The notes under the pieces are model-generated. The model did not search any database, was not told where the DNA came from, and saw nothing but the letters and a program-made list of their open reading frames with translations. Made by a program: the position numbers and the translations under genes. DNA of 64,000 bases. Source: a virus. Shown piece after piece: positions 31,523 to 53,077 of the stretch (position 1 is its first letter; every line of letters starts with the position of its first letter). The stretch is from IMG/VR virus record IMGVR_UViG_3300030101_003058, positions 19,033-83,032 of that record; one strand, given 5' to 3'.

Positions 31523-31753
31523 CTATTGTAAATCTATCCCAAGCATCTCCACCACATCACCACCAATATTATCAAGATCATTGAAGTAGCGATACATAGA
31601 ATACTCATGAACATTCTCAAAATGCTTCAGTTCACACCTTCCGTGTTTCTTTGCGTGTTCACTGAAGGCTCCTGAGATGTTGTTGCTGGCACCTGCTCTC
31701 CAGAGATCAAATTCTGTTTCAATGTAAAAACTTGGGACTGTTGGTTGTTTCAT
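31523..31753 (-). CDS. hypothetical protein (76 aa)
   Basis: ATG at 31753 after AAAAGGAGAACAC, overlapping the HNH stop. Aromatic-rich and soluble. Unknown. Confidence 0.6.
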   Translation of the reverse strand: MKQPTVPSFYIETEFDLWRAGASNNISGAFSEHAKKHGRCELKHFENVHEYSMYRYFNDLDNIGGDVVEMLGIDLQ

Positions 31754-32370
31754 GTGTTCTCCTTTTGTTTGTCTTTGGTGCTTATGCTTGGTTTTCCATG
31801 GCGTTTTGTGTAACCTAGTTGTGGATTTTTGGCGAAAAACTCTTCACGGGCTTTAGCGGCCTCCTCTATAGTGTTGTAATAACCAAGACCTTTGCGACTA
31901 CCATCAACACTAATCTGAGCCTTCCACTTTTCCAGTTTTTTGCACCAACATACGCCCGTAACACCGGATGTGTTGTCCTTTCTAATTCTTTGGTTCCTGA
32001 CATTGATTTTTTGAGGTACATCCCTTAGATTCTCAATTTTGTTATTTTCAGGGTTTCCGTCAATGTGGTCAATATGATGTTCTGGCATATTACCATAAGT
32101 CAACACCCAAACAATTTGATGTGCAGTTATTCCCTTTATTCCACCAGCACCTACTACCAAGTACCCATGCCCTTGTCTGCCGAATTTCACAATTTTCCCT
32201 GCACGCTCCCGAAGAAAATTTCGATATCTGCCTTTATACTTGTTCCACCTCGGGTCAATCCAAGATTTCCAGCAGATTGCTCCTGTATCAGCATCATAGT
32301 CAAAAAATGCTTTAATCACACCTTCTTTTGATCTATCAAGTAATTCTCCGGTGTTTTCTACGTCTTGCAT
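31750..32370 (-). CDS. HNH homing endonuclease with AP2 domain
   Basis: Encodes 206 residues. An HNH_3-type core (ITAHQIVWVLTYG, HHIDHIDGNPENNKIENLR) is followed by an AP2/ERF-like DNA-binding domain (SGVTGVCWCKKLEKW, then a strand and helix ending LGYT). This two-part layout is standard for phage HNH homing enzymes. It heads the leftward block behind the promoter at 32413. Confidence 0.88.
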   Translation of the reverse strand: MQDVENTGELLDRSKEGVIKAFFDYDADTGAICWKSWIDPRWNKYKGRYRNFLRERAGKIVKFGRQGHGYLVVGAGGIKGITAHQIVWVLTYGNMPEHHIDHIDGNPENNKIENLRDVPQKINVRNQRIRKDNTSGVTGVCWCKKLEKWKAQISVDGSRKGLGYYNTIEEAAKAREEFFAKNPQLGYTKRHGKPSISTKDKQKENT

Positions 32371-34562: not shown

Positions 34563-37500
34563 TTGAGTAACGAGAGACACGTACTGAAGCCGCAACCGGG
34601 ACCACAAACAGATTTCCTTAAAGCCGATGAAACTTATGTTTTCTACGGCGGTGGTGCTAAGTAACACTGGTTCCACCTTAAAAACACCTGTCTAATCGGG
34701 GAAACCTACGGTTGATTTATCAACTAGGGCAATCCTGAGCGAATATCGTAATCAATATAAACTCTAAGATTTATCTAAGGAGAAACAGAAATGCCAGACA
34801 TTAAGCCGATATACGGTTACCCAAACTATTCAGTATCTTCGGATGGTGTTGTTTGGAGCAACATTACGGGGAAGCCTGTAACTGAGTATATTACCGAATC
34901 TAGCCCCACTGTCAAAAGGGGTTCCGGTTACCATAGGGTACAGCTTTACAAGAACGGTAAAGGTAAAAAGTTCTTTGTTCATCGTCTTGTAGCGTTAGCC
35001 TTTATATCAAACGATGACCCAGAGGCCAACTGCGTTAACCACAAAAACGGTAATAAAGCAGATAATTCTGTGGAAAATCTTGAGTGGGTTACACACCGCC
35101 AGAATGTAGATCACGCAGTTGAAACAGGTCTGCAACTCAAAGGCGAGGCAGTAGGCACTTCCATCTACGAGGAACAAATGGTTCACAAGGCTTGTCAGAT
35201 GATTGCTCGGGGTGATTTATCACTTCAAGACATCTCTGATGAGACGGGACTTGGTTACCACACAGTGTCTGATCTGAAGAATCGGCGCTCATGGAACCAT
35301 ATCACCGAACAATATGATTACGATAAGGCCAAGAGACTACCGAGGTCGCGCAGAACTGCGTAAGATAGTAGGGTAGGCTGCAAGTGCAGCCGAAACGGCA
35401 GGAACGTGTTTACACGTTAAGATATAGTCCGATACTCGGGGAAACCCGAGAGTGACCTCACGAGTCACATAACAGCCACGGGTGGTGGCAAGAGTTGGGC
35501 CATACTTGCAGATAATCTCAAGTACATACATGACCCAAATTATTTCTCAGTGTTCTTCAGGGAAACCACGACCCAGATAGAATCTGGACTCTGGCCCGAG
35601 GCCCTGAAGATGTATGAACCGTTCTTGAAATATCAGAGCGGCCCAAAGAAAGGTAAACTTCTTCCCGGTGTCAAAATCCGAGATAAAGACAAAACAATAA
35701 TCTGGCCCTCGGGTGCCAAGACACGTTTCAGTTACCTTCAGAATGACCGTGATGCTAACCAGTGGTACGGTACGGAGCTTTCTCGGGTGTATATGGACGA
35801 GTTCCAGCATTTCTCCGAAGTGCAGTTTACCGTACTTCGTTCGCGTCTGCGTTCTAAAGCTAAGTTCCCATCTGCAATGCGCTGTACAATGAACCCAGAC
35901 AGCGGACACTTTGTTCTTGAGTTTATCCGAAGATATCTTGACGAAGATGGTTATCCTATCAGGGATTACTCAGGTAAACGCGCATGGTTCATTATGCAAG
36001 GCGGGGATATCTATACGGATTGGGATTTTGATGCTCTGCAAGAAAAGTTCCCAGATCAGACACCACAGAGCTATACGTATGTCCCGTCGGTGCTCTCTGA
36101 TAACCAAGAGTTGTTAAAACTTGAGCCGGGATATGCAGATATCCTTAAGTCTTTGCCTGATGTAAAACGCAGGCAGCTTCTGGAAGGTTGTTGGTTCGTG
36201 AGCGACAACAATGCGATGTACTTTGATCGCACTTGGTTACACAGGATAAACTCTGTCCCTCCAAATTGTAAAGCAGTCCGCGCATGGGATAAAGCATCTG
36301 AGGAACCGAACCCTTCCCTCCGACATCCTGACTACACTGCATCTGTTAAGATGTACAAGGATAAGCACGGGAATTACTATTTGTGTGAGGGCACAAGGTT
36401 CCGCAAGCAGTCTGGTGAACGGGATATGATGATTCTGAATCAAGCAGAGCATGATGGTAGGGATTGCTACATTGTGTTTCCGATAGATCCGGGATCTTCT
36501 GGAAAATCTGAGTTCCGACACTCAACTAAAACATTTCTGGAAGAAGGCTTTGTAGTAAAGCGTGACCCTATGGCCCCGACAAAACCGAAGGTACTGAAGT
36601 TTGAGCCATTTGCAACAGCGGCTCAGAACGGTCAAGTATATTTGGTTGAGAAGGAATGGGATTCTGATAATCTCAAGGCTTATTTGGATGAGCTTGAGTC
36701 ATTTACAGGGGAACGTTCGAATGCTTCAAGAAAAGACGATTAACAACTTTGTTACCACAGCAAACCCAGTCGTCTATAAACTCCTTTAATTGCTGGAAAC
36801 TCCAGTCAGACTTTGAGTAGGATATTGCACGGTAACGTAGCAACGAACCCTGAAAACCTCAAAGGTATGGACAATCAGCAGACAATAGTGTAGACTCTGT
36901 AAGTAGAGATATAAATTTATTTACGGAGGAATTATTTTGGAAATTAAAAAAGTAAGAGGTTTTGAAAACTATTATGTGAGTAAAAACGGCGATGTGTTTT
37001 CTACATGGCACGGGACCATGAAGAAAATGACCTTACAACTTCATAAGAGCGGTTACTACAGCATTCGACTGTCTAGAGGGTTGCGGGATTACCAAGGTTT
37101 TATGGTGCACAGGCTTGTAGCAGAAGCCTTTATCGAAAACCCGGAAGATTTACCTACCGTAAACCACAAAAATGGTATTAAAACTGACAACCGTGTTGAG
37201 AACCTTGAGTGGATGACATATAAAGAAAACAACCGCCACGCATGGGATATTGGCTTGTGCGATGGTCGCCGGGGTGTCAACAACCATTTCTCTAAAATAT
37301 CAGAGGGTGATGTTCGAACTATTTGTGAGCTTTTGCAAGAAGGTAAGCAGAGTAGACAAGAGATTGCCGATTGTGTTGGTGTCAAATACAACATAGTCAG
37401 CTCTATTGTGGAACGTAGGGATTGGGCACACATAAGTCAGGACTACGACATCCCAAAGCCGCGTAAGATTGCTAAGAAAACTTCTGACGATGTTGCAATA

Positions 37501-37947
37501 GAAGTCTGTAAACTTCTCAATCAAGGTGTTCGTAATAAAGACATTTGCAAGAAGCTGCAAGTTAATGCAGGTTTTGTTACGTCTATAAAAATCGGTAGAC
37601 GTTATAAACATATTTCCAAAATATATTTACACTAAGTTTCAACGACCATCGAAAGCACACGAAAGTGTAGTTAGTAGAGTAGGCTTAAGCAAGCCGAAAC
37701 TAGGAGAGGAGTCTTGAAAGACTCCTAAGATATGGTCTGATCTGCATAGAGATATGCAGCAGCACTTAGAGTGCGGGGAGAGCGTAGCGAACTCTCCTGA
37801 ACATCAATGTGGGTAGATGCAACAGCATCAGCATTCAACAGCCTAAGCCGAGAAAAAGTAATCCCCCAATTCTCCTTAGGCGAATTTTCCAGTAACAGTC
37901 CCACAGCTTTCAAAACACACAAGGATTCCGTAGATTACTACGAATAA
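34563..37947 (+). CDS. terL: terminase large subunit, three exons split by two group I introns
   Basis: Exons 34563-34658, 35481-36740 and 37810-37947 join in frame to 497 residues. The start is TTG after GGGAGGTGTTG. Walker A (FYGGGA + GGGKS) is made by the first splice. Walker B is RVYMDEFQHF. In the C-terminal RNase H-like nuclease, acidic residues lie in RAWDKA and in KDD + WVDATASAF, which the second splice joins. The protein cuts concatemers and powers DNA packaging into the prohead. Unspliced RNA would stop at 34662-34664, so it depends on splicing. Confidence 0.9.
34659..35480 (+). other. group I intron 1 in terL (Walker A site)
   Basis: The 822 bases begin after U (GCU) and end in G, as group I introns do. 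An S-type core element AAGATATAGTCCGA is at 35419-35432, with paired elements around 34690-34735 and a hairpin ACTCGGG/CCCGAG near the 3' end. It carries an HNH gene. Sequence differs from introns 2-4, so it is a separate type. Confidence 0.85.
34791..35363 (+). CDS. HNH homing endonuclease of intron 1
   Basis: Encodes 190 residues. NUMOD4-like start (IYGYPNYSVSSDGVVWS), HNH core (HRLVALAFISN, CVNHKNGNKADNSVENLEWVTHRQN) and a helix-turn-helix C-terminal part (LSLQDISDETGLGYHTVSDL). Starts with ATG after AAGGAGAAACAGA. It should cut intronless terL at the P-loop codons to drive intron homing. Confidence 0.88.
   Translation: MPDIKPIYGYPNYSVSSDGVVWSNITGKPVTEYITESSPTVKRGSGYHRVQLYKNGKGKKFFVHRLVALAFISNDDPEANCVNHKNGNKADNSVENLEWVTHRQNVDHAVETGLQLKGEAVGTSIYEEQMVHKACQMIARGDLSLQDISDETGLGYHTVSDLKNRRSWNHITEQYDYDKAKRLPRSRRTA
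36741..37809 (+). other. group I intron 2 in terL (nuclease site)
   Basis: 1069 bases; 5' exon ends in U (GAU), intron ends in G. Core pieces shared with introns 3 and 4: AATTGCTGG-AACTC near 36790, GACAATCAGCAG near 36870, TTCAACGACC at 37638 and AAGATATGGTCTGA at 37727-37740. Carries an HNH gene. Confidence 0.88.
36937..37635 (+). CDS. HNH homing endonuclease of intron 2 (TTG start)
   Basis: Encodes 232 residues from TTG at 36937 after GGAGGAATTATT. NUMOD4-like start (RGFENYYVSKNGDVFS), HNH core (HRLVAEAFIENP, VNHKNGIKTDNRVENLEWMTYKEN), then two HTH-like repeats (residues ~120-160 and 185-225). A hairpin (36899-36905/36918-36924) touches the ribosome binding site, likely limiting translation. 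Confidence 0.88.
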   Translation: MEIKKVRGFENYYVSKNGDVFSTWHGTMKKMTLQLHKSGYYSIRLSRGLRDYQGFMVHRLVAEAFIENPEDLPTVNHKNGIKTDNRVENLEWMTYKENNRHAWDIGLCDGRRGVNNHFSKISEGDVRTICELLQEGKQSRQEIADCVGVKYNIVSSIVERRDWAHISQDYDIPKPRKIAKKTSDDVAIEVCKLLNQGVRNKDICKKLQVNAGFVTSIKIGRRYKHISKIYLH

Positions 37948-44571: not shown

Positions 44572-46688
44572 ATGGCTAGTGTTTTCACTATTGAGGACAT
44601 TGTTGACGTAAATATTACGCTCGGTGATCGTCCCATTGCCCAAAGCAACTTCAGCACTCCACTGATTCTAACCGCAGATGCTCCATTTGCACCTGATCGT
44701 ATTCTTACGGTTACTGGTGTAGACGATATGACATCTGCTGGTTTTACAGATGGTGATGCTGCTTATGAAATGGTTGCTCTAATTTTCGGAGGTGATAATC
44801 CGCCTCGTGAAGCAATCATTGGTAACGTGGACGTAACTGGTACAGAGACTTACATTGAAGCTCTTGCAGCTATTGAAGCTGAAACTACAGATTGGTTCTT
44901 CATTCTTGCAGATACTCATACAGAAGCTGAGCAGGAAGCTCTGGCGCAATACGCCGAAGCAGAACGCAAGATGTATATTACGTCTTCTTCCTCTGCTGAT
45001 ATTCCTGATGGCACTGCTGGAAATCTTCTGGAGACGTTTCAGGATCTTCAGTATGACAATACTCTGCTTTGGCCTCACGCTGATGCTGATACTGTTTATC
45101 CTGAAGGTGCTATTGTAGGCGCTATGGCTGGTCTTGTTCCGGGCAGCTCTACTTTGCACGGTAAGACTCTTCCGGGTGTCCCAACAAACAAATGGACACG
45201 TACTCAGGCAAACTACATTCAAGACAACAACGGTTTCCAGTACGTTATGATCGCTGGCGTTGGCTTTGGTCTGGATGGCAAGGTTGTCTCTGGTCGATTC
45301 TTTGACGTTACTCGTGGCGCTCTGTTCACCGAAGCCCGTTATATTCCTCTAGCGGCATAATCTCGAAAGAGTTTATGAAAACCTCTCTAATTGCTGGGAA
45401 CTCTAGTTAGGTCTTGAGTAGGCTACTGCATGGTGACATAGCAGCGACCCCTAAAAATCTCAAGAATATAGACAATCAGCAGGAAAGATTGTATACTCTA
45501 TAAGTATAGACACAAATTACTTATGGAGGAATTGTCTTGGAACTTAAGCAAATTGAATACGCGCCTAGATACTACGTGTCTAGTGCTGGTGATGTTTATA
45601 GCGACTGTGGTACAGAACGTAGAAAACTTAATCCTTGGTATAGTAAATACGGTTACTTGTTTGTAACCCTATGTGCCGAAGGTGGTGTTGAGTTTAGGAA
45701 ATCTTGTCACAGACTTGTAGCAGAAAACTTTATTGATAATCCAGAAAACAAACCATACGTTAATCATATCAACTCTGTTAGAGACGACAATCGGGTTGAG
45801 AATCTTGAATGGTGTACTCAGAAAGAAAATATCCATCACGCTTTGGCGAGTGGTAATTTCACACCTACAGGAGAGAATAACGGAGCAAGTAAGCATTCTG
45901 AATCTACAATTGTGAAAGTTTGCCAGTTGCTAGAAAATCCCGATCTGAACAACAAAGCTGTGGAAGGCCAAACTGGCGTTTCTGCGGCCCTAGTCTCTAA
46001 AATACGGAACGGACGTGCGTGGTTGCACATATCATCGGATTATAAAATAAAGCGTAAAAATCGACCGGCACTAAGCAGAGAGTCTATTATTCAGATTTGT
46101 GAACTCATAAACACTGGTGTTCCTTACAAAGAAATATCGCAGCGTTTTGATGGCTATCCTGTTCGCTATATCAGAGAAATAGCCAACAAGACGCATTGCA
46201 AAGAAATTTCAAGACAATATATACAATAATCTTCAACGATCAGCCCTTGTGGCGTAGGTTCAAGTGAACCGAAATGGGAGGACTCGTAACAGGTAATGCT
46301 GACGAGTGTGATATGATCTGGTCTGCATAGAGATGTGTAGCTGCAAGTAATGTTGCGGAGGCGGAGTAACGACCCGCCTTGAACACGAACGATGGAAGAA
46401 GCACTGTTTGGGTTGCTTAAGCGCCGCTCAGACCTCGGAAGTAAAATTTCATACGATGCTGTTGGCCTTACAGTAATTGAGGCTGTAATCTACGAACAAC
46501 TTAACTTGAGGGTTGCAGAAGGTTTCTTGGCGGCTAACCCAGCACCAACAGTAATCATGCCTAGTCTGGCGAATATTCCAGATAATGACAAGGCTAATCG
46601 TGAACTCAATCAGGTTGAATTCCAAGCGGTGTTGGCAGGTGCTGTGCACTATATGCAACCTGTTCGCGGATATTTGACCCTCAGTTAA
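44572..46688 (+). CDS. tail sheath protein, two exons split by a group I intron
   Basis: Exons 44572-45339 and 46392-46688 join in frame to 354 residues. The join FTEAR + MEEALFGLLKRR restores a sheath C-terminal domain (KISYDAVGLTVIEAVI, ending RGYLTLS). Without splicing, frame one stops at 45358 after YIPLAA. Sheath protein polymerises around the tube and contracts at infection. Confidence 0.85.
45340..46391 (+). other. group I intron 3 in the sheath gene
   Basis: 1052 bases; 5' exon ends in U (CGU), intron ends in G. Shares with introns 2 and 4 AATTGCTGGGAACTC near 45395, GACAATCAGCAG near 45470 and TTCAACGATC near 46233. The S-like element is GATATGATCTGGTC at 46310-46323. Carries an HNH gene. 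Confidence 0.87.
45537..46229 (+). CDS. HNH homing endonuclease of intron 3 (TTG start)
   Basis: Encodes 230 residues from TTG at 45537 after GGAGGAATTGTC. NUMOD4-like start (APRYYVSSAGDVYS), HNH core (HRLVAENFIDNP, YVNHINSVRDDNRVENLEWCTQKEN), then two HTH-like segments. A hairpin (45500-45506/45518-45524) abuts the ribosome binding site. Confidence 0.88.
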   Translation: MELKQIEYAPRYYVSSAGDVYSDCGTERRKLNPWYSKYGYLFVTLCAEGGVEFRKSCHRLVAENFIDNPENKPYVNHINSVRDDNRVENLEWCTQKENIHHALASGNFTPTGENNGASKHSESTIVKVCQLLENPDLNNKAVEGQTGVSAALVSKIRNGRAWLHISSDYKIKRKNRPALSRESIIQICELINTGVPYKEISQRFDGYPVRYIREIANKTHCKEISRQYIQ

Positions 46689-46703
46689 TTAAGGAGTATT
46701 TAG

Positions 46704-47177
46704 ATGGCCACAGGCGGCTTGTTCCTTGGAACATATGATCCTCAGCAGGTAATCGTCACAATTGATGATCTACCAATTCTGGGCTACCAAGACGGTGATG
46801 CCATTACTGTAGAACGTAATGAAGACTTCACTAATGAAACCATTGGCATCAAAGGTGACGTATCTCGTGCAATCAATCGAAATGCAACAGGTACACTAAC
46901 GATTTCTCTACAGCATAACAGCCCAAGCGTTGCTCAGATTGAAGCAATGGCTCACCAAGACTATCCTCCGGTTGTTCGGGTGGCAGTACGTGATCCTTCT
47001 TCTGCTGAAGCGTTTAGCTCAAGTTATGCTTGGCTCAAGACTGACGCATCACATTCTTTTGGTGATGAAGTTGGCACTCGTGAGTATACGTTCTTCTTGT
47101 ACAGTGTTCGCGCTGGTCAATACATTGAGAACTTTGCAGAGAACCTTGCGTTCTCTCTGGCTAATAACGCTCTCTAA
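46704..47177 (+). CDS. tail tube protein (DUF3277/KPP10-like)
   Basis: Encodes 157 residues. VTIDDLPILGYQDGDAITV, then GIKGDVSRAINRNATGTLTI, fits the tube proteins of KPP10/Felix O1-like myoviruses (DUF3277). It stacks in rings inside the sheath. Lies right after the sheath and before the chaperone genes. Confidence 0.85.
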   Translation: MATGGLFLGTYDPQQVIVTIDDLPILGYQDGDAITVERNEDFTNETIGIKGDVSRAINRNATGTLTISLQHNSPSVAQIEAMAHQDYPPVVRVAVRDPSSAEAFSSSYAWLKTDASHSFGDEVGTREYTFFLYSVRAGQYIENFAENLAFSLANNAL

Positions 47178-47711: not shown

Positions 47712-47968
47712 ATCGTCAAACAAGACGCATGAAGAAACTCTATGAAGCAATCGACAGAGACACTTCATTAGAGCAGATGGAACTTCTTGTGTTCAGACCC
47801 GTCTTTGCTGAACATAGTTCTGTGACATTGACAGATTTGCTTAATAGTACATTAGAGTTCACTTTAAAAGTGAATGAGTTTCTTGATATTAAAGAGTCGA
47901 TTGAAGAGGAGCATTCGAAAGAAATGGAAGCTGCTCAGAAGAAAAATATGCCGAGAGGAGGTCGCTAA
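47268..47968 (+). CDS. tail assembly chaperone, frameshift fusion (GT)
   Basis: After decoding CCT-TTA a -1 slip resumes at 47672 and stays open to 47968, giving 233 residues (135 + 98). The added part is basic, then helical (KKLYEAIDRDTSLEQMELL) and ends PRGGR. Its stop overlaps the tape measure ATG. The second frame could also start at ATG 47729, but no good ribosome binding site is there. Confidence 0.7.
47666..47672 (+). promoter_or_regulatory. -1 ribosomal frameshift heptamer
   Basis: C CCT TTA in frame zero is a canonical X-XXY-YYZ slippery heptamer, 39 bases before the zero-frame stop TAG at 47709-47711. The shifted frame is free of stops from here to 47966. Confidence 0.75.
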
Positions 47969-50869
47969 TGGCTGAATCGGATAGAGTGGCGGGTATATAC
48001 TCAGAGGTTCAATATAGGTTTGACCCAAAGAGTATAAAGACGCTACGGAAGTTCAAAAGGGATTTAATGGAAGTCAAGGATAACATACGTGCTATCAAAA
48101 GACTTTCAAAAGGTAATGTTAAATTAGGCTTTAGTGCAAAGCAAGCCAAAGTATCTCAACAGGTACAAAGGGCTACTGAGAAGACCGCTAAAGCATCCTC
48201 AGATGAAGTTGAAAGGTCAGCAAAAGTCTGGCGAATGAAAGAGAAGATTCTCAAGAACCAAGCAAGGGAAGCAAGGTTGCAAAAGAGGTCTTCACAGATT
48301 GCTGAGAATTCTCAAAAGAAACAACTTGCGATGGAATCTAAGATTGCTGCTCAGAGGGCTAAGATGGCTCGTATGGGTGGCATGGGGATGCAGCGAGGGA
48401 AGATTACGCCAGCATCTCTAGGACGCATCAGAAACGCTCAGGAGAGGCTCAACAGGGCTTATCGTGACGGTAGTATTTCTGTGAGTCAATTCAATACTCA
48501 GTCTCAGAGATTGACAGGGATTCTTCAGAGGCAGACTCAGGCTGCACAGCGTACTAGCATGAGCTTTAACCAGATGCGTTCGGCAATCGCAGGGGCAACC
48601 GGGGCATACAGTGGATTTGCTGCTGGTGCTGGTATTAAGCAGATTGGTGGTCAGTTCGAAGATGCTGCAATTATGCTTGAGACAGCCTTTGGTAGTTCTT
48701 CGGAAGCTCAAGAGATTATGGGATTTCTGATTGAGCAATCTCAAAGACTCGGCGTGGGGGCTGTGGAAGTTTCTAAAGGCTTCGCCAGATATTCATTGGC
48801 CGGTAAGAGAATGGGTTTTACCAATGAACAGTTGCGTGAGCAATTTCTTGGTATAGCAGAGGCTTCGCTCGTGTTCGGCCTAACCCAACAAGAGATCACT
48901 GGCACTATTCGTGCGATGGAACAAATGGCTTAATAATCAATAACTTGAAGGTCATTTAAAACTCCTTTAATTGCTGGGAACTCTAGTTATACTTTAGATA
49001 GGATACTCTGTGGCGACACAAGAGCGACCCCTGACAATTCTAAAGGTATAGACAATCAGCAGGCAAGCATGTATACTCTATAAGTATAGACATAAAATTA
49101 CTTATGGAGGGAATTGGTTTGAATATTACAGAAATAAGTGGGTTTGAAGATTATCTGGTTTCTGACTGCGGCAAGGTTTACTCGACAAAATTTAACAGGT
49201 TTAAAGAGAGGAAATTGACGCCCGATAAGAACGGGTATTTGACAGTTTCATTATCACCCGACGGTGGCTTAACACGCAAGACCTTTAAGGTGCATAGACT
49301 GGTTGCCCAAGCCTTTATTAAGAAAGATATAGATGAGCTTGAGGTTAATCATTTAAACGGAGTGAAATCAGATAACCGTGTCGAAAATTTAGAGTTGGTC
49401 ACGCATTCTGACAATATGAGTCACGCATCTTCCACAGATCTTTTACACAAAGGCGAGATGGTTTCTCAAAGCAAGTACACAGAGAAACAAATCAGAGAAG
49501 TCTGCCGGTTGTTGCGAGACCCCACAATTTTCATTAGGGAAGTTGCAGAGGCCACAGGTGTTTCATATTCTATCTGTAGTAGTATTTACAACGGTCAGAA
49601 ATGGAAGCATATTGCTGAGGAGTATGATTTTCCCGGTAAAAGGCCACGAGGTCGGACTGGCTCTCTGAGCGATGAAGATGTTGTTGAGGTGTGCCACAGA
49701 CTCAACCGTAAGCAAAAGATGACACAGATAGCTAGAGAAACCGGATTGTCGTACTACAAAATCTTACGGGTAAAGAACAATACCACTTATTCTGAGATAA
49801 CAAATCAACATTTACATGAAGCTCCAACGGCTATCGAAAGCACATCTTCGGATGGAAGTGAGTAGAGTAGACCCAAGCGGGTCGAAACGGGGAGAAGGGT
49901 AGGAATACTCTTAAGATATAGTCTGATCTATGTGGAGACACATAGCTGCAAGTAATGTTGCGGGGAGGGTGTAGCGAACCCTCCTGAACATATATGTCCA
50001 AGGGGCAGGTCATGAGTGAGGAATTGAAACTCCAACTCGGTGACCGTATGCCAGCCGTGCTGGGTTTGGCCGCAGATGCTATGGGGCAAACCACAGCAGA
50101 ATTTCTTAAAAATATGGAAAAGGGCTTGGTGAAATCGGAGGAGTTTCTTCCGAAGTTCACTAAAGCTCTCCGTGAAATGGCTGCTCCGGGTCTAGACAAG
50201 GCATTTAAGACGATGAACACATCGTTCAAGCGTCTAACCCAAAACGCCAAACTCTTCGTCAAAGCATTATTCGAGAGTGGCATTGGCGATCTTTTCACAA
50301 GCATATTCAATACTCTCTCGAACGTATTCCAGATAATGTCTCCGGTAATCTCATTACTCGGCGGACTAATCACGGCTGTACTCAAGCCAATCTTTTACGT
50401 TCTTGAAGCAATCACAGATGCCATTCTATATATCACCAAAGCTTTAGATGAAGCTCTCGGTGGTAAGCTGAACGAGTATATGGCCATGATTGGCCAGATT
50501 GGTGGCTTCCTGTTGTCAATCTTTGGCAAACTAGCGTCTGTAATTGGATGGGTTGTGAAAGGCATTGGTAAACTCTTTAGAATGCTCCCAAGTGTTCGCT
50601 TTGCAGGCTCTATGAGCAAAGCAGAAGGTGCTAGTGGAATGATGGCTAGAGCATCCCAAGCTGTTTCTGGTGCTGCTTCTAAGGCCGGACAAGTGGGTTC
50701 TAAAGCACTCAACAGTACAGCCTATAGAACAACAGCGGCTGGTGTTGGGGGTGCAGAGCTTTACCAACAAAAAGTAGCCGTAGAATTCACAGGCGAAGCC
50801 AGAGACAACCTACGACAAAACAAGAGAGAATCTACAGTAAGAACCATTAACACTAATTCGAGGCCGTAA
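47968..50869 (+). CDS. tail tape measure protein, two exons split by a group I intron
   Basis: Exons 47968-48930 and 49997-50869 join to 611 residues. The join AMEQMA + SKGQVMSEELKLQLGDRMPA restores the conserved tape measure motif (QM-SKG-x-EEL-x-Q-GD-x-P). The first third is a basic coiled coil (Lys/Arg/Gln), the middle and end have hydrophobic helices (FTSIFNTLSNVFQIM; IGWVVKGIGKLF). It sets tail length and is ejected with DNA. Quite short, so a short tail (about 100 nm at 1.5 angstrom per residue) is inferred. Confidence 0.87.
48931..49996 (+). other. group I intron 4 in the tape measure gene
   Basis: 1066 bases; 5' exon ends in U (GCU), intron ends in G. Close relative of introns 2 and 3: AATTGCTGGGAACTCTAGTTA near 48972, GACAATCAGCAGGCAAG near 49050, AAGATATAGTCTGA at 49913-49926. 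Carries an HNH gene. Confidence 0.88.
49119..49865 (+). CDS. HNH homing endonuclease of intron 4 (TTG start)
   Basis: Encodes 248 residues from TTG at 49119; an ATG at 49104 overlaps the GGAGG and was rejected. NUMOD4-like start (SGFEDYLVSDCGKVYS), HNH core (HRLVAQAFIKKD, EVNHLNGVKSDNRVENLELVTHSDN), two HTH-like repeats (FIREVAEATGVSYSICSSI; MTQIARETGLSYYKILRV). A hairpin (49080-49086/49099-49105) abuts the ribosome binding site. Confidence 0.88.
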   Translation: MNITEISGFEDYLVSDCGKVYSTKFNRFKERKLTPDKNGYLTVSLSPDGGLTRKTFKVHRLVAQAFIKKDIDELEVNHLNGVKSDNRVENLELVTHSDNMSHASSTDLLHKGEMVSQSKYTEKQIREVCRLLRDPTIFIREVAEATGVSYSICSSIYNGQKWKHIAEEYDFPGKRPRGRTGSLSDEDVVEVCHRLNRKQKMTQIARETGLSYYKILRVKNNTTYSEITNQHLHEAPTAIESTSSDGSE

Positions 50870-50871
50870 CA

Positions 50872-51453
50872 ATGGCAAGACCCGTATCATTCATAGCTGG
50901 TGGGTTGACACCCTCATCCAATGTTGGGCCACAACAGCCTTTCATTGAATTTGATAGTACAGTGGAACTTGTCACAGATTTCTCGGGTAATGTTTCTTCA
51001 CATCCTGTAGAGAAAGGTGCTCGTGTAACTGATCATTTCACAAGAGAGAATCCTGTGTTCACTGTGAGAGGTGTCACGAGCAATACTCCTGTCCTTGGTA
51101 CAGATGAAGCTAATGTGGTGGGAAGTACAGGTAAGAGAACCAAGAACACCTACGAAGCACTCAAGGGAATGTATTTGAATGCTCATGTGTTCACTATGAT
51201 TTCTGACTTGGATTCCTACCCAAATTGTATCATTAAAAACTTTGGCTTTACTCAGAATGCTCAACAAGCTGAAGCACTCTATGTCGATCTTGAGATTGAA
51301 CAATTAAGAATCGTAGGCTCTGCTCGTGCTGTTGCCTTGGTTCCTGTTCAGCCAAGTAAAGCAGATGATAGTGCTCCAAAGGTCAACCGTGGTGTTACCT
51401 CTGGTAAAGAAGCAAGTGAAGATGATCTACCATTGATATTCAGGAGAGACTAA
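50872..51453 (+). CDS. Dit-like baseplate/tail protein
   Basis: Encodes 193 residues. The first 120 (FDSTVELVTDFSGNVSSHPVEKGARVTDHF) match the Dit-like N-terminal fold that joins tube and baseplate hub. The acidic tail is disordered. Follows the tape measure by two bases. Confidence 0.7.
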   Translation: MARPVSFIAGGLTPSSNVGPQQPFIEFDSTVELVTDFSGNVSSHPVEKGARVTDHFTRENPVFTVRGVTSNTPVLGTDEANVVGSTGKRTKNTYEALKGMYLNAHVFTMISDLDSYPNCIIKNFGFTQNAQQAEALYVDLEIEQLRIVGSARAVALVPVQPSKADDSAPKVNRGVTSGKEASEDDLPLIFRRD

Positions 51454-51454
51454 G

Positions 51455-51799
51455 ATGCCAATATTTCTAGATGGATCTGACTCTGCTGATTCCTTTTACA
51501 CAACCAATCTTGAAGGACAAGCGTATGAACTTAGGTTTCGCTGGAATTCCCGAAGTGAAACTTGGTTTATGTATATTGGAATCTCTGGTCAAGAGTATGC
51601 TGTAAAGACTCGACTAACTGTTGGTAATAATCTATTGGCACCCTACCGTTCTATTGACGGTGTTCCTCCGGGTTCTTTGTATCTCGCTGATATTGAGAAA
51701 ACATATGGAAGACCCTCGCGGAATGACTTTGGAATTAACAAGAGGTTTCGGTTGCTCTACTACAGGTCTACAGAGACTGATCCACTAACGGAGGTGTAA
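51455..51799 (+). CDS. baseplate plug protein (Pam3 gp18/DUF6983-like)
   Basis: Encodes 114 residues, beta-rich (YELRFRWNSRSETWFMYI). This small protein between Dit-like and hub resembles the DUF6983 plug family described in simple contractile phages. Recognition by pattern and place. Confidence 0.65.
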   Translation: MPIFLDGSDSADSFYTTNLEGQAYELRFRWNSRSETWFMYIGISGQEYAVKTRLTVGNNLLAPYRSIDGVPPGSLYLADIEKTYGRPSRNDFGINKRFRLLYYRSTETDPLTEV

Positions 51800-53077
51800 A
51801 TGTTTCGTAGACGTTATCAGATGGTTATTGGTAGGGCCTATGCTCAACAATCAACTAATGCTGCTATTCCTGTAGTTCCTGAGACTGGTGTTGTTCTTGA
51901 AAGACGCTTGGACAGAACCTACTACGATGCCTCTGTTAAATCTGTGTGGCGACAAAAGACTCGTGAAGAGATTCAGGCAGAACAAAATGCAATCCTTGAG
52001 AACTTCGTTGGACTCAAAGGAGAATACCTGAATCTCATTTACGATGACCCAAGTTCTCTTGATGGTCTTGCTGGCTTCCTTGATAATAACAATATTATCA
52101 TTGAAGATCATCATGTAGAATTTGATGTTGAGAAAGTTGGTGCTAATTCTTCTGAAGGCAACGAAGGTGAAATTACTTTGTTCAACCTTTCAGATGAGAC
52201 AGCATTACTTTTACAAGTCATAGCAACGACAATGAACTTTGTAGAGTTTTCTGCTGGATACGAAGATGAACCTTTGCGTGTTATCATCCGTGGTAACATT
52301 AAATCAGCAGAAGATAAGTTTGATGGTGTTGATAGGCGTACCAAGATTGTTGTAACAGATGGTGGCGAGTTTGCTCAGAATCAAATGACCACTAAGGTGT
52401 ATCCCAAGGGTACTCCGATAAATGATATTGTAGAAGAGATGATAGATGACCTTGCGCTACCTAAAGGTAACATTGTTCAGTTGGGTGGCTTTGGTACTCT
52501 AAGCAAACCTCTGATTGTTCATGGTAAATCAATAGATCAACTCAAGCGTGTCTTGAACAACTTTGGGTATGTCATAAATATCCAAGACCTTTTTGTGAAT
52601 ATCTACAGCAAGAGAATCCAAGACACCGTTGAAGAATTCCTGAATGGTGCTGGTGAATTTGAAGCACGTAGTATTCCTCTGGTGAGTGCTGATACAGGTC
52701 TTTTGACATCTCCTGCTTATATCACAGATACATCTGACATGACTGCTCAGGAAATCTCTAACGAATCTGTGACAGGTATTAAGTTCAATCATTTGCTTTC
52801 TGGTGAATTTACCCCCAACGCATTCATTCGACTTGAGACAGAGAAGTTCTCAGGAACCTACAGAATCCTCAAGGTGACTCATACAGGAAGTCTTGAGGGT
52901 GATGAGTGGTTCTCTGAGGTAGAAGCTGAGGCTGTTCAATATCAAACTCGTGTAACTCCGCTGAATGAACAACCAACTATTGAAGAACAAGATTTGAACC
53001 CCTCTGATGATGATTTGACATACTGGGGTATTGGTGGTGTTGGTAATGTACTTGAAGGAACCGGAGGTAATGAGTGA
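51800..53077 (+). CDS. baseplate hub protein (gp44/gp27-like)
   Basis: Encodes 425 residues. The region from EFDVEKVGANSSEGNEGEITLFNLSDETALLL on fits hub proteins that form the central ring on which the spike sits. Acidic C-terminus. Start right after the plug gene stop, with ACGGAGGTGTAA ahead. Confidence 0.75.
   Translation: MFRRRYQMVIGRAYAQQSTNAAIPVVPETGVVLERRLDRTYYDASVKSVWRQKTREEIQAEQNAILENFVGLKGEYLNLIYDDPSSLDGLAGFLDNNNIIIEDHHVEFDVEKVGANSSEGNEGEITLFNLSDETALLLQVIATTMNFVEFSAGYEDEPLRVIIRGNIKSAEDKFDGVDRRTKIVVTDGGEFAQNQMTTKVYPKGTPINDIVEEMIDDLALPKGNIVQLGGFGTLSKPLIVHGKSIDQLKRVLNNFGYVINIQDLFVNIYSKRIQDTVEEFLNGAGEFEARSIPLVSADTGLLTSPAYITDTSDMTAQEISNESVTGIKFNHLLSGEFTPNAFIRLETEKFSGTYRILKVTHTGSLEGDEWFSEVEAEAVQYQTRVTPLNEQPTIEEQDLNPSDDDLTYWGIGGVGNVLEGTGGNE

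Follow-up and report, generated by a model that had tools for sequence, protein, structure and literature searches.

The closest described counterpart of the locus analyzed here is the Vibrio phage ICP1, which carries three introns in its tape-measure gene, with splicing shown by RNA-seq and RT-PCR (PMC10448857; see also PMC9040626). In the td intron of phage T4, which encodes I-TevI, the 3′ end of the endonuclease gene lies over core sequences, the Shine-Dalgarno (SD) sequence is held in a hairpin that has a promoter inside it, and co-conversion is found; the hairpin shields td splicing from translation (PMC2988022). The DNA-polymerase intron of phage SPO1 encodes the HNH endonuclease I-HmuI. 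For phage Twort, PMC5526547 cites Landthaler and Shub (1999) for a tail gene split by three group I introns.

We examined a 64,000-nucleotide stretch (the window) of an 87-kb IMG/VR virus record. As sheath and tail chaperone genes are located upstream of the tape-measure gene, the phage is a myovirus. Its tape-measure gene is interrupted at positions 48931 to 49996 of the window, on the strand given (+). Like ICP1 (L011), the window has its intron in the same gene and motif, with a group I core at 73% identity over 113 nt, an AUGGCU guide and an HNH_3 endonuclease. The two differ in that the ICP1 introns are at sites 984, 992, and 1008 with the HNH gene in the 992 intron, whereas the window intron is at site 963 and has an HNH gene of its own. 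The overlap of endonuclease gene and core and the hidden SD sequence described for T4 td are likewise found in the window, where the promoter inside the hairpin and co-conversion are candidates; however, the T4 enzyme is of the GIY-YIG type and its host gene is thymidylate synthase. I-HmuI is of the same family as the window enzyme but has another host gene and lacks the extra C-terminal HTH repeats. Taken singly, the tape-measure intron is thus of a known kind, for which ICP1 offers a direct precedent, and it extends that published case to an uncultivated myovirus in which three structural/packaging genes together contain four introns.

Overall, we consider it highly probable (about 95% for the joint statement) that the insertion is a group I intron, IA-like and mobile, within the most conserved tape-measure motif, with self-splicing, homing, and hairpin control. 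At the sequence level, the analysis establishes its exact ends, ribozyme core, P6 HNH gene, empty allele, same-site introns, and paralogues. The endonuclease, the sister introns, the evidence for mobility, the hidden ribosome-binding site, and an 11-site hotspot were added to the original prediction of an intron.

Exon junction and empty allele

The tape-measure gene sets the length of the phage tail. In the window it consists of exon 1 (47968 to 48930, +; 321 codons, ending EQMA) and exon 2 (49997 to 50869, +; starting SKGQVM). The reading of exon 1 is terminated by TAA at 48931 to 48933, with which the intron begins, such that an unspliced mRNA read from the normal start would yield the first 321 residues only, as had been predicted. 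The frame resumes at 49997 in phase 0, and the joined protein is 611 aa. This protein scored 89.5 bits against Pfam TMP_3 (PF20155, profile positions 5 to 189), passing the cut-off of 41 bits, compared with 35.0 bits (positions 5 to 100) and 42.6 bits (positions 102 to 189) for exons 1 and 2 taken separately. Similarly, TIGR02675, within which the exon junction falls, scored 39.5 bits on the joined protein (cut-off 21.35 bits, passed) but 23.7 bits on exon 2 and nothing on exon 1. These scores bear out the proposal that joining QMA to SKGQVM rebuilds a tape-measure motif, and PF20155, TIGR02675, and PHROG (tape measure) agree with the host gene originally named.

The same site is uninterrupted in IMG/VR contig 3300025260_000010 (L006/L007), which reads EQMASKGQIMSEEL at this position and thus represents the empty allele; two different introns occur in its tape-measure gene, 29 and 51 nt past this site. 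With this allele, the claimed coordinates of 48931 to 49996 proved exact to the base. An intron at exactly the same base was found in contigs 3300009508_000064 and 3300025881_000025 (L008/L009); no other contigs came up when IMG/VR was scanned for the pattern of the 3′ junction at site 963. The annotations of relatives, which list two 'tape measure' genes (S4-7) or hypothetical genes (J2-1), would fit a free-standing HNH gene between two genes that are always separate, with no intron. However, in the empty allele a single gene runs through this position without a break, joining the exons doubles the score against the profile, and a group I core flanks the HNH gene on both sides; the empty allele and core structure refute this arrangement, and we give it virtually no chance. 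The dN/dS values of the two exons compared with L007 were low (0.18 and 0.16; range 0.16 to 0.18). We infer that splicing may be under strong selection, which fits these values and the published splicing of the ICP1 tape-measure gene.

Ribozyme core and predicted splicing

The intron spans 1,066 nt, is preceded by U as the last base of the 5′ exon, and ends in G49996. Helix P1 (AAAUGGCU/GGUCAUUU) is predicted to form between the exon strand AAUGGCU (48924 to 48930) and the internal guide sequence GGUCAUUU (48950 to 48957), with a U48930·G48950 wobble at the splice site; in the P1 pairing test it had 8 contiguous pairs compared with a null median of 3. A P10 strand, CUUG (48944 to 48947), which can pair with CAAG of exon 2 (49999 to 50002), was read from the sequence.

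Covariation was assessed in an alignment of 11 related introns, including the sheath and 3′-terminase paralogues of the window, from which the P6 ORFs were removed. Helices P3, P4, P5, P5a, P7, P8, P9, P9.1, and P9.2 were scored, amounting to 55 core pairs and 555 cells. Pairing was found in 93.9% of the cells, compared with 37 to 47% when the partners were slid by 1 to 3 columns; double changes were seen in 40 of the 55 core pairs, where shuffles gave 22, and covariation scored 0.536 compared with 0.227. The helices supported in this way include: (i) P3 (48962 to 48967 with 49889 to 49894); (ii) P4 (UGCUGG, 48972 to 48977, with UCAGCA, 49056 to 49061), which is compensated in L008 as UGCGGG/UCCGCA; (iii) P5 (48992 to 48997 with 49040 to 49045) and the enclosed P5a (49006 to 49012 with 49017 to 49024), for which double changes occurred in all 12 pairs and 100% of the cells were paired; (iv) P7 (49827 to 49833 with 49919 to 49924), whose 5′ strand is inside the endonuclease ORF; (v) P8 (49895 to 49901 with 49906 to 49912); and (vi) P9, P9.1, and P9.2 (49928 to 49984). 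A P3-P4-P5-P6-P7-P8 core with the P7/P3 pseudoknot is thus present; its short P6 helix was identified by eye. Between P7 and the P3 3′ strand, a P7.2-type hairpin (GACCC-AAGC-GGGUC, 49870 to 49883) was read from the sequence, with counterparts in the sheath and TerL introns. Extra P7.1/P7.2 hairpins at this place are a trait of subgroup IA, and the intron is termed IA-like by this hairpin rather than by a subgroup model.

At the Rfam gathering threshold, no match was found within the window. The 3′ part of the intron scored 28.5 bits against RF00028 (E = 3e-4), which is below the gathering score of 50; this score is a cut-off for detection and does not define group I introns. In the tape-measure genes of other phages, homologous introns without an ORF mostly scored 48 to 96 bits (one scored 38.9 and one 32.6), and the homologous ICP1 intron scored 77.9 bits; the low score in the window is therefore probably due to the 750-nt ORF inserted in P6. 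By its predicted P1 with U·G, its P10, its terminal G, and its covarying core, the insertion is a group I intron. Its RNA would remove itself by guanosine-initiated transesterification and join QMA to SKG, giving the 611-aa tape measure. The last three intron bases are ATG, in frame with exon 2, and would be consistent with a decayed, non-splicing intron whose two flanking pieces are made separately (exon 2 from ATG 49994) and assembled as a split tape measure. Yet no clear SD sequence precedes 49994, all P3, P4, P5, P5a, and P7 pairs are formed, the 8-pair P1 is kept in both the window and L008, and the ICP1 tape-measure gene splices (PMC10448857). Furthermore, introns at other sites of the motif interrupt codons, and splicing is therefore required at those sites. 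A split tape measure is, on these grounds, very improbable, and self-splicing is the reading we prefer.

Intronic endonuclease and evidence for mobility

The P6 loop contains a gene (49119 to 49865, +) with a TTG start for a 248-aa HNH homing endonuclease of NUMOD4, HNH_3, and HTH repeats, similar to I-HmuI. The only solved relative found was PDB 1u3e (E = 6e-10), an entry itself titled HNH homing endonuclease, which we take to be I-HmuI of phage SPO1. The family assignment, judged from the protein sequence, is secure. A search of IMG/VR with the endonuclease itself found no relative, and an alignment of 8 distant members had no stretch conserved enough for searching. The last codons of the gene double as the P7 5′ strand. 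Compared with the L008 enzyme, pN was 0.33 and pS 0.86, by which the endonuclease appears to be under purifying constraint.

The SD sequence of this gene (GGAGG, 49106 to 49110) is covered by a predicted 11-bp hairpin (49076 to 49109, +; arms 49076 to 49086 and 49099 to 49109). Its computed accessibility was 0.00 compared with 0.61 in shuffles, none of 200 shuffles being equally inaccessible. By folding, removal of the 5′ arm abolishes the hairpin, and an RNA beginning at 49084 leaves the SD sequence uncovered. The hairpin is common to five related introns with two double changes, a modest covariation from only five sequences. Among 11 endonuclease introns tested, SD hiding was clear in the tape-measure, sheath, and TerL2 introns of the window and in L008, where the SD sequence is fully paired and none of 200 shuffles was equally inaccessible; H101-1023 also had low accessibility, reached by 2.5% of shuffles, and hiding was not significant in L006-992, ICP1-992, PhAER-4-992, J2-1-1023, V1084-966, and TerL1. 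A sigma70-like promoter sequence (TAGACA-17-TATACT, 49049 to 49077, +; 10 of 12 matches) overlaps the P4 3′ strand. Such sites are near chance in number in the region (4 found compared with 2.4 expected), and our guess is that transcripts from this putative promoter would begin near 49084, in the 5′ arm of the hairpin; the promoter-like sequence and hairpin recur in the same layout in the sheath and L008 introns. On the long tail-gene transcript, the SD sequence would be locked in the hairpin and ribosomes kept off the P6/P7 sequences shared with the 3′ end of the endonuclease gene, while the enzyme may be made from a short transcript started at the promoter-like site within the 5′ arm, as for I-TevI of T4. 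As far as analogy reaches, the hidden SD sequence matches the published control of I-TevI (PMC2988022), and it suggests that introns encoding HNH enzymes in an unrelated group of phages have this kind of control as well.

Related introns, also on the + strand, were identified elsewhere in the window. That of the tail sheath gene (45340 to 46391; HNH gene 45537 to 46229) separates EAR from MEEA and has 83% identity to the tape-measure intron over ~159 nt; L007, L008, and L027 lack an intron at this sheath site. Another, in the 3′ part of the terminase large subunit gene (36741 to 37809; HNH gene 36937 to 37635), separates KDD from WVDA, and these three introns are related in sequence. Less close is a fourth group I intron (34659 to 35480; HNH gene 34791 to 35363), which separates GGGA from GGGKS in the terminase Walker A motif and scored 26.6 bits against RF00028 (E = 6e-4), its ends being less certain. 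Upstream of the terminase genes there is also a free-standing HNH endonuclease gene with an AP2 domain (31750 to 32370, −).

When the window was compared with L007, nearby exon DNA was mostly 92 to 100% identical, but sharply divergent patches surrounded the tape-measure intron (~48510 to 50240, 54 to 79% identity) and the sheath intron (~45200 to 46750, 63 to 80%). Synonymous difference was 0.75 inside the tape-measure patch and 0.20 outside, a contrast that favors replacement from a diverged donor over relaxed selection. Such patches are as expected from co-conversion; however, a third and similar patch (~51040 to 52200) has no intron in either phage, so the patches alone are no proof of homing, and within the tape-measure patch L007 has introns at other sites. 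The endonuclease was most similar to the same-site enzyme of L008 (52.6%) and only 25 to 39% identical to enzymes from other sites. The best pairs were again same-site at 992 (54.6%) and 1023 (61.4%), compared with 25 to 39% across sites; the exception was L006-992 and L010-992 (35%), a divergence that fits endonuclease turnover. The intron cores of the 963 group (window and L008) and the 984 group separated with 97% bootstrap, and a simple hop of 21 nt from the ICP1 site is therefore not supported, although both have the AUGGCU guide. With its HNH gene, empty allele, same-site introns, and paralogues, the tape-measure intron is, as judged by comparison, a member of a mobile family.

The HNH enzyme would cut or nick intron-less tape-measure alleles of co-infecting phages, and repair of the cut allele would copy the intron and flanking exon DNA across. 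In addition, the intron might be kept mainly as a weapon, the endonuclease cutting the tape-measure gene of intron-less co-infecting phages and leaving them fewer progeny. The intron endonuclease gp210 of PhiPA3 is a precedent, acting in interference competition against PhiKZ (PMC11620839), and both a close relative with an uninterrupted site (L006/L007) and the constraint on the endonuclease are in keeping with this role. Nevertheless, homing alone accounts for the same facts, and we regard the weapon role as a rather unlikely addition to the mobile self-splicing intron.

Intron hotspot in the tape-measure motif

In total, 32 group I introns were placed at 11 sites within 76 nt (25 codons) of the tape-measure motif in 13 phage loci. 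Introns were placed by the joined reading frame, exon-end U, intron-end G, and P1, and sites were numbered in nt of the tape-measure coding sequence of the window. The sites are: 948 (S4-7); 959 (J2-1, HM1, and H101); 963 (window and L008); 966 (S4-7 and Vibrio 1.084.O); 984 (ICP1, S4-7, 1.084.O, J2-1, HM1, H101, and PH357); 992 (ICP1, S4-7, H101, PhAER-4, L006, L010, and L027); 1003 (H101 and PhAER-4); 1008 (ICP1 and 1.084.O); 1014 (L006, L010, and L027); 1020 (HM1); and 1023 (J2-1 and H101). All 31 junctions listed in the P1 test have the exon-end U and intron-end G. Placement of the third 1.084.O intron at 1014 was rejected in favor of the 1008 frame, which was found by eye and is better, as P1 at 1014 has only 2 pairs. 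A scan with the guide sequence revealed further tape-measure-like genes split at 984 (L030, L031, L033, and L034). The hotspot stretch is intron-free in Vibrio phage 1.121.O (L016) and in L026. An informal look at the 13 loci noticed no interruption elsewhere in the tape-measure gene; the sample is biased in that the loci were found through a tape-measure intron or gene.

The most densely interrupted gene is that of Pseudoalteromonas phage H101 (L017, 2651 to 5140), with five introns in 64 coding nt and internal exons of 25, 8, 11, and 20 nt. Twort, as far as the citing source describes it, resembles the relatives of the window in that a single structural gene of the tail carries several group I introns; it differs in the gene concerned, and H101 reaches five introns. 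The crowding of introns into one tape-measure motif is unusual, and no paper describing the 11-site pattern was found in the open literature searched, subscription journals being outside that scope. One tentative possibility is that codons 316 to 341, inside the TIGR02675 domain, are a docking zone for at least 11 site-specific lineages, with up to five introns per gene set apart by exons of 8 to 25 nt. The endonucleases would then compete for and defend this short target when marine phages co-infect, and each occupied site would destroy or shield the targets of the other introns. The hotspot offers a natural system for testing site choice and competition among selfish introns, and it bears on the splicing of an 8-nt exon between two introns. 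Whether splicing order sets the supply of tape-measure protein, and hence of tails, is open to test here.

In the ICP1 record (L011, 6100 to 6126), the position annotated as promoter 'Porf80' is also that of the Q/P4 strand in the first tape-measure intron, likely reflecting either mis-annotation or dual use. A 126-kb phage contig (L036, 666 to 1293) also has, in a different gene, an intron-like sequence with the same guide sequence, where the HNH gene is open only when TGA is read as Trp (code 4).
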